From Lawsonibacter sp. (lineage in GTDB: Bacteria; Bacillota; Clostridia; Oscillospirales; Oscillospiraceae), in assembly GCA_022795855.1 (NCBI GenBank), contig JAAWHL010000008.1, positions 1 to 49,761 on the forward strand: a stretch of 49,761 bases of DNA, read 5' to 3'. Shown here piece by piece: positions 11,031 to 12,226 of this stretch (positions within the stretch are counted from its first letter, which is position 1; each line of letters begins with the position of its first letter). The position numbers and the translations under genes are program-made. The notes beneath the pieces are model-generated. The model was not told the DNA's origin, searched no databases, and saw only the letters and a list, made by a program, of their open reading frames with translations.

Positions 11031-11046
11031 CTGAGGGAGGACTGAT

Positions 11047-12183
11047 ATGGCATACTACATCAGCCTGTTTTCGCCGGAGACCTATTTCGCCTTTACAGCT
11101 TCCGAGAAAAATACGGCCGGCGTCAGGGAGCATCTGCAAAACGCGGCCTCCAGGGTCAGGCCCGGAGACAAGCTGGTCTGCTACCTGACAAAGCTGTCCC
11201 GCTGGGTGGGGATTCTGGAAGTAAAATCCCCCTGCTTCCTGGACAACACGCCCATTTTCCTGCCGTCTGCGGATCCCTTCAAGGTGCGGTTCCAGGTGTC
11301 CCCGCAGGTATGGCTGGCGCCTGAATATGGGATTCCGGTCCAGGAGAACGTCTGCTGGGAGCGCCTCTCCTTCACAAGGGAGCTGCCCCGAAACAGCACC
11401 GTCTGGACGACGATGTTCCGCAGGAGCTTGCGGGAGCTGCCGGAGGAGGACGGCTGCTGCCTGGAACAGCTGCTGACCGGGCAGGAGGCCGAAAAGGTCC
11501 GGTATGAGTTCTCCGCCGCCGACCGGAAAAATCTTCGGCCCTCCCTGGTGAACGCGGAAACCAGGCAAATCCCGGTTCTCATTCCCGAGGACGAGCCGGA
11601 ATCCAATCCTCACAGCGAGCCGGAATCCGATTCCGGAACCTGCGGCGGGCCGGAGGCCGGGCATACGCGGATACAGGCCCTTCTGGCGGAAATCGGCGCC
11701 GAGATGCGGTTCAAAATCTGGCTGCCGCGCAATGACCGGCAGCGGGTTCTTGCGGTATGGAACCCTCCTTCGGAGGGAGTCCTGCTGGACCGGCTCCCCA
11801 TGAATTTGGACCAGCTCACCATGAGGATGATTGAAAACATCGACGTGCTCTGGATTCGGCGCAGGGCGATTGTCCACGCGTTCGAGGTGGAGCACTCCAC
11901 ATCCATCTACTCCGGCCTGCTGCGCATGGCCGATTTGATGGCGGTCCACCCCAACCTGGCAATCAAGGCGCACATCGTGGCGCCCTTGAGCCGGCGCACC
12001 AAGGTGCTACGGGAGATTTCCCGCCCGGTGTTCTCCCTGATTGAGAGCGGGCCTATGTCCGAAACCTGTTCCTACCTGTCCTATGACGCGGTGGCGGAGC
12101 TGCGCAGTGAGCGAAACCTCCAGCACCTGAATGACAGCGTGCTGGAGGAGTATACGGAGTACGCGGCGGAGACGGAATTTTGA
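11047..12183 (+). CDS. EVE/PUA-like domain protein with putative nuclease-like C-terminal domain
   Basis: N-term MAYYISLFSPETYFAFTASEKNTAGVREHLQNAASRVRPGDKLVCYLTKLSRWVGILEVKS resembles EVE/PUA-like modified-base readers; C-term IDVLWIRRRAIVHAFEVEHSTSIYSGLLRMADL resembles a D...ExE nuclease core. Confidence 0.6.
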   Translation: MAYYISLFSPETYFAFTASEKNTAGVREHLQNAASRVRPGDKLVCYLTKLSRWVGILEVKSPCFLDNTPIFLPSADPFKVRFQVSPQVWLAPEYGIPVQENVCWERLSFTRELPRNSTVWTTMFRRSLRELPEEDGCCLEQLLTGQEAEKVRYEFSAADRKNLRPSLVNAETRQIPVLIPEDEPESNPHSEPESDSGTCGGPEAGHTRIQALLAEIGAEMRFKIWLPRNDRQRVLAVWNPPSEGVLLDRLPMNLDQLTMRMIENIDVLWIRRRAIVHAFEVEHSTSIYSGLLRMADLMAVHPNLAIKAHIVAPLSRRTKVLREISRPVFSLIESGPMSETCSYLSYDAVAELRSERNLQHLNDSVLEEYTEYAAETEF

Positions 12184-12189
12184 ACTGGA

Positions 12190-12226
12190 AAATCCGGTGA
12201 AGAGGCTTTGCCTCCTCACCGGATTT
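12190..12226. terminator. Intrinsic terminator between convergent EVE gene and cdd
   Basis: aaatccggtgaagaggc-ttt-gcctcctcaccggattt. Confidence 0.75.

Follow-up and report, generated by a model that had tools for sequence, protein, structure and literature searches.

Fusions of an EVE domain to a PD-(D/E)XK nuclease were catalogued by Bell, Wolf and Koonin in 2020 as predicted type IV, modification-dependent enzymes (PMC7641849). VcaM4I, which joins an EVE domain to an HNH nuclease, is a proven binder of 5mC and 5hmC (PMC7897488). The EVE fold is also represented by the solved structures of PH1033 and MJECL36 (UPF0310), in which the domain stands alone without a nuclease. Here, we describe an EVE-nuclease gene of Lawsonibacter sp. 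(GCA_022795855.1, contig JAAWHL010000008.1, positions 1–49,761 of the forward strand; this whole stretch of 49,761 nucleotides is referred to as the window).

The encoded protein is a further member of the previously predicted EVE-PD-(D/E)XK class and is not new in kind. It shares with the catalogued fusions the core architecture of an EVE reader and a PD-(D/E)XK nuclease; as that census was made at the level of architecture, the comparison is by architecture alone (PMC7641849). Our analysis adds an orthologue set, the tracing of the nuclease to a named type II restriction-modification (R-M) endonuclease family, and an ExE motif. Like VcaM4I (about 310 aa), the window protein combines an N-terminal EVE reader and a C-terminal nuclease in a single polypeptide of similar size, and the same mode of action would be expected by analogy. 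Unlike VcaM4I, which has an HNH nuclease and a helical linker, it has a PD-(D/E)XK-type domain and an acidic, variable linker (PMC7897488). The likeness to PH1033 and MJECL36 covers residues 1–143. In contrast, the likeness to the PADLOC REase_II family PDLC03534, to which homologue L008 belongs, lies in the C-terminal domain, which is homologous throughout; the PDLC03534 proteins have another N-terminal half and, at loci L020 and L021, a C5-cytosine methyltransferase neighbor that is absent in the window.

The EVE-REase gene and its site

The open reading frame is a genuine protein-coding gene (Table 1). Its GC content by codon position (0.60/0.43/0.80) is similar to that of the neighboring genes, and a shadow frame on the opposite strand mirrors this pattern. 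In comparison with orthologues L001, L026, L027, and L059, differences are fewest at codon position 2 and most frequent at position 3. The N-terminus, the Ser/Glu/Pro-rich linker (residues 183–198), and the IDVLW...FEVEH segment (residues 265–283) quoted in a first-pass annotation of the DNA are all found where that annotation had placed them.

Table 1 Features of the EVE-REase gene and its flanks in the window
Feature	Position	Strand	Basis
EVE-restriction endonuclease fusion gene, 378 aa	11047..12183	+	ORF; coding-type substitutions versus four orthologues
Shine-Dalgarno-like GAGGGAGGA, ATG 4 bases downstream	11034..11042	+	Direct sequence reading
EVE (PUA superfamily) domain, residues 1–143, UPF0310/PRK00809 branch; conserved aromatics F78 and W120	11047..11475	+	Pfam, PRK00809, and PH1033 matches
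Acidic, variable linker, residues 183–205	11593..11661	+	Sequence and orthologue alignment
C-terminal PD-(D/E)XK-type restriction endonuclease domain, residues 206–372	11662..12162	+	PADLOC REase_II 3e-14; family alignment; predicted fold; fold matches
D266 codon, proposed metal-binding 'PD' aspartate	11842..11844	+	Invariant in both alignments
E280-V281-E282 codons, proposed ExE (ExK-equivalent) catalytic motif	11884..11892	+	Both Glu invariant in both alignments
Terminator-like hairpin just 3' of the EVE-REase stop, between the convergent EVE-REase and cdd genes	12190..12226	.	-25.8 kcal/mol, z = -6.8 versus shuffles

The genes surrounding the EVE-REase gene in the window are ordinary housekeeping genes. 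The first-pass annotation had proposed a single-gene defence effector inserted between upp and cdd. While the location is correct, the site has no special meaning that we could recognize: across 29 loci from the genus, upp keeps the TsaB-like gene as its partner, but cdd lies within 1.5 kb downstream of upp in none of them, and the genes downstream of upp, where read, vary from locus to locus. Insertion into a conserved upp-cdd pair is thus rejected, and the position carries no evident functional meaning.

The N-terminal EVE domain

Sequence comparison firmly assigns residues 1–143 to the EVE family. The window protein matches NCBIfam PRK00809 with an E-value of 1.4e-8 and, as a single sequence, the solved EVE structures PH1033 (2.2e-6) and MJECL36 (2.2e-4). 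The Pfam EVE model is marginal for the window protein alone (22.1 bits versus a cut-off of 23) and reaches 24.5 bits for orthologue L004. When a profile of seven sequences was used, consisting of the six nuclease-fused EVE domains and one standalone EVE protein (L010), the PH1033 match had an E-value of 6.8e-17. The EVE/PUA-like N-terminus suggested by the first-pass annotation is borne out by the PRK00809 match and both PH1033 searches.

All seven sequences of the profile share W120, and each carries an aromatic residue at position 78. The EVE domain of VcaM4I uses Y130 and W82 as stacking residues (PMC7897488), to which W120 and F78, respectively, may correspond by position only. The standalone EVE gene L010 (G456:C8:1608-1934) has a PF00145 C5-methyltransferase gene (G456:C8:2142-3410) as a near neighbor on its contig, in the same orientation.

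The C-terminal nuclease domain

Residues 204–369 match PDLC03534, the PADLOC REase_II 'type II restriction enzyme' family, with an E-value of 3e-14, and for homologue L008 the match to the same family spans the entire protein (2.9e-93). Within the nuclease domain, L008 can be aligned with a further homologue, L009. The L008 gene is convergent to a C5-cytosine DNA methyltransferase gene at locus L020, while the L009 gene overlaps a same-strand C5-methyltransferase gene at L021; this pairing resembles that of a type II R-M endonuclease. The domain shared with these R-M enzymes makes up only their C-terminal half; in the window protein, EVE takes the place of the N-terminal half of those enzymes, which presumably confers specificity.

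The proposed active site, D266-X13-E280-X-E282, is retained without exception across the 12 aligned domain homologues, which span at least three architectures. The complete set of positions invariant in this alignment comprises Q210, G217, I265-D266, W269, E280, E282, G290, R293, V311-A312-P313, F329, and Y343. Among the six EVE fusions, D266, E280, and E282 are likewise kept in every member, and W269 is replaced by Cys in one. H206 was considered as a catalytic residue and dropped, as it is Ser in L059. The lysine usual in the PD-(D/E)XK motif is a glutamate in the window protein, giving ExE rather than ExK. The same replacement is known from BamHI, where the ExE form is active (PMC4081073).

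The nuclease domain was modeled alone from three sequences, those of the window protein and two orthologues. The best model had a pLDDT of 78.8 and a pTM of 0.82, and the other four of the five had mean pLDDT values of 33–69. Its secondary structure runs helix, short strand, an insert with two helices, strand, strand, helix, strand, helix, and contains the helix-strand-strand-strand-helix-strand topology of the PD-(D/E)XK core. In the model, D266 immediately precedes one core strand and E280 ends the next, a predicted placement that is the PD-(D/E)XK arrangement. The top six PDB fold matches were BsaWI, three chains of EcoT38I, EcoO109I, and Can2, all of them PD-(D/E)XK proteins; as each match is weak (E-values of 0.09–0.5, none reaching the criterion of 0.001 or below), what supports the fold is the agreement among the matches. 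A model of the full-length protein was poor (pLDDT of 45), and its fold matches included Mus81, XPF, EcoO109I, and Can2. A PDB sequence search with the nuclease-domain alignment returned nothing convincing.

Collectively, the restriction-endonuclease family match, the invariant D/E/E residues, and the predicted fold support the D...(E)xE, PD-(D/E)XK-like active site that the first-pass annotation had read from the sequence. The nuclease fold it had expected structure prediction to give also emerged for residues 206–372, with weak fold matches.

Orthologues and their neighborhoods

Orthologues of the same build occur in five other genomes or contigs, with identities to the window protein of 66% (L026), 59% (L027), 58% (L001), 50% (L059), and 35% (L004/L025). 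An EVE fusion is present in two of 61 same-genus genomes, one being the full copy in the window's own genome and the other truncated, and in an order-level sample of 396 genomes, it was found in the window genome and two others. A rare, patchy distribution of this kind is usual for defence genes. The annotated phage records contained no homologue, and the IMG/VR search returned a single one, L059. Two matches from the phylum search, L011 and L012, were rejected as chance matches, the matched frames being MurJ-like membrane proteins.

G008 (L003 / L028:12012-12810, at the end of G008:C15) has the C-terminal part alone, which continues at the contig end into sequence unlike EVE that occurs nowhere else in the G008 assembly. 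The replacement may reflect a disrupted gene or an error of assembly.

Two of the five orthologue neighborhoods point to defence or mobile DNA, in line with the defence context anticipated by the first-pass annotation; the housekeeping neighbors in the window do not. At L025, the EVE-nuclease gene lies on one strand behind genes for a type I HsdR, a YgjP-like metallopeptidase, and a second, standalone EVE-like protein, forming part of a type I restriction operon. At L059, which is a virus-classified contig, the EVE-nuclease gene adjoins a serine recombinase gene. L001 has genes for a NucS_C-domain protein and for small HTH proteins in its vicinity. No adjacent methyltransferase gene was found at the window locus, and none is visible beside the EVE fusions at L001, L025, L026, and L027.

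Two small genes next to these fusions were also recorded. The standalone EVE-like protein at L025:4100-4564, encoded directly upstream of the EVE-nuclease gene, has a Pfam E-value of 0.0038 and falls below the cut-off. At L059:5101-5508, a 135-aa protein whose gene overlaps the end of the EVE-nuclease gene has a GIDVIG...WIIEVKG motif that looks nuclease-like by eye, and it had no match in Pfam or PADLOC.

Methyltransferases in the carrier genomes

An enzyme that reads 5mC should be found in cells without 5mC. The search for host methyltransferases covered the families PF00145 and PF01555. The window's genome (93% complete) had no match to PF00145, for which 10 of 14 control genomes were positive, and no match to PF01555. 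Likewise, no PF00145 match was found in four other carriers. The sole carrier with a C5-methyltransferase is G008, whose assembly shows the EVE part as absent or interrupted. This pattern fits a 5mC-reading enzyme but is not significant. C5-methyltransferases occur in 36 of the 61 genomes of the genus and in only 32% of 398 genomes of the phylum; because 68% of the phylum sample is also without one, their absence in the carriers is weak evidence, and it was dropped as a proof of 5mC sensing.

Proposed function and alternative explanations

In our view, the gene probably encodes a single-polypeptide, modification-dependent (type IV-like) restriction endonuclease. A modification-sensing type of domain is fused to a nuclease-family domain, without a methyltransferase partner, as in type IV enzymes. 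The cognate methyltransferase of a type II R-M system was found neither adjacent to the gene nor, as a PF00145 or PF01555 match, in the genome. From the domain composition, we infer that the window protein recognizes a modified base and cuts DNA. The EVE domain would flip out the modified base and hold it in an aromatic-lined pocket, base flipping being proposed by analogy with VcaM4I. The recognized base would most likely be a cytosine derivative, and the nuclease domain, connected to EVE by the acidic linker, would probably act as a dimer; we infer both the identity of the base and dimerization. Incoming modified DNA would be cut near the bound base by D266, E280, and E282 with Mg2+. Self-DNA would be spared if the host does not make the recognized modification, and we propose that a methyltransferase partner is therefore not needed.

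An orphan type II-like endonuclease is an unlikely alternative, in favor of which speaks the kinship of the nuclease domain with type II R-M enzymes that have C5-methyltransferase partners. In that case, the nuclease would keep its sequence specificity, EVE would serve as an auxiliary DNA-binding module that inhibits or assists cleavage without making it depend on a modification, and the host would be protected by a methyltransferase encoded elsewhere. However, neither PF00145 nor PF01555 has a match in the host, four other carriers lack a C5-methyltransferase, and the half of the R-M enzymes that EVE replaces is presumably the one that confers specificity. It is also quite improbable that the protein acts on damaged or modified cellular nucleic acid under stress, in DNA repair or on modified RNA, rather than in phage defence. 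EVE domains do bind modified RNA and have non-defence roles (PMC7641849), and the repeated occurrence of a sister family in copper and other metal resistance loci (see below) fits a stress role of the nuclease domain. Nevertheless, the EVE fusions are rare and patchy, and their neighborhoods, among them a type I restriction operon and a virus-classified contig, are typical of defence and not of core repair. The glutamate in place of the usual lysine could mean that the C-terminal domain is non-catalytic and that the protein does no more than bind modified DNA, serving as a regulator or decoy. We regard this as very improbable, since the aspartate and both glutamates are invariant across distant homologues, including the methyltransferase-paired enzymes, and ExE is active in BamHI (PMC4081073).

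If the modification-dependent restriction endonuclease reading is right, this single gene specifies a small enzyme that may both recognize modified DNA and cut it by means of a PD-(D/E)XK domain. A type II restriction endonuclease family would then be linked to type IV restriction by a change of reader domain, providing a testable case of one kind of restriction system turning into another. A speculative extension, to which we give a small chance, is that the C-terminal domain is an exchangeable cutting cassette, used in type II R-M, in EVE-guided restriction of modified DNA, and in a lone helix-hairpin-helix-like form associated with metal resistance, with the EVE form perhaps reading a modification that no restriction enzyme is yet known to target.

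A sister family in metal-resistance loci

Members of the sister family are lone proteins of approximately 420 aa in which the same nuclease domain is combined with an N-terminus that appears helix-hairpin-helix-like by eye (KGLGPAVANLLYF). L013, L014, L016, L061, L062, L064, L015, and L063 are found on plasmids, whereas L022–L024 are chromosomal. In Sphingomonas, Variovorax, Caballeronia, Cupriavidus, Listeria, and Leptolyngbya, members lie in plasmid copper/heavy-metal resistance loci, where they have no DNA methyltransferase partner. The Streptomyces member (L015) has only a metal-domain gene nearby, and the Listeria copper locus has genes in common with the flanks shown for the Enterococcus member (L063).
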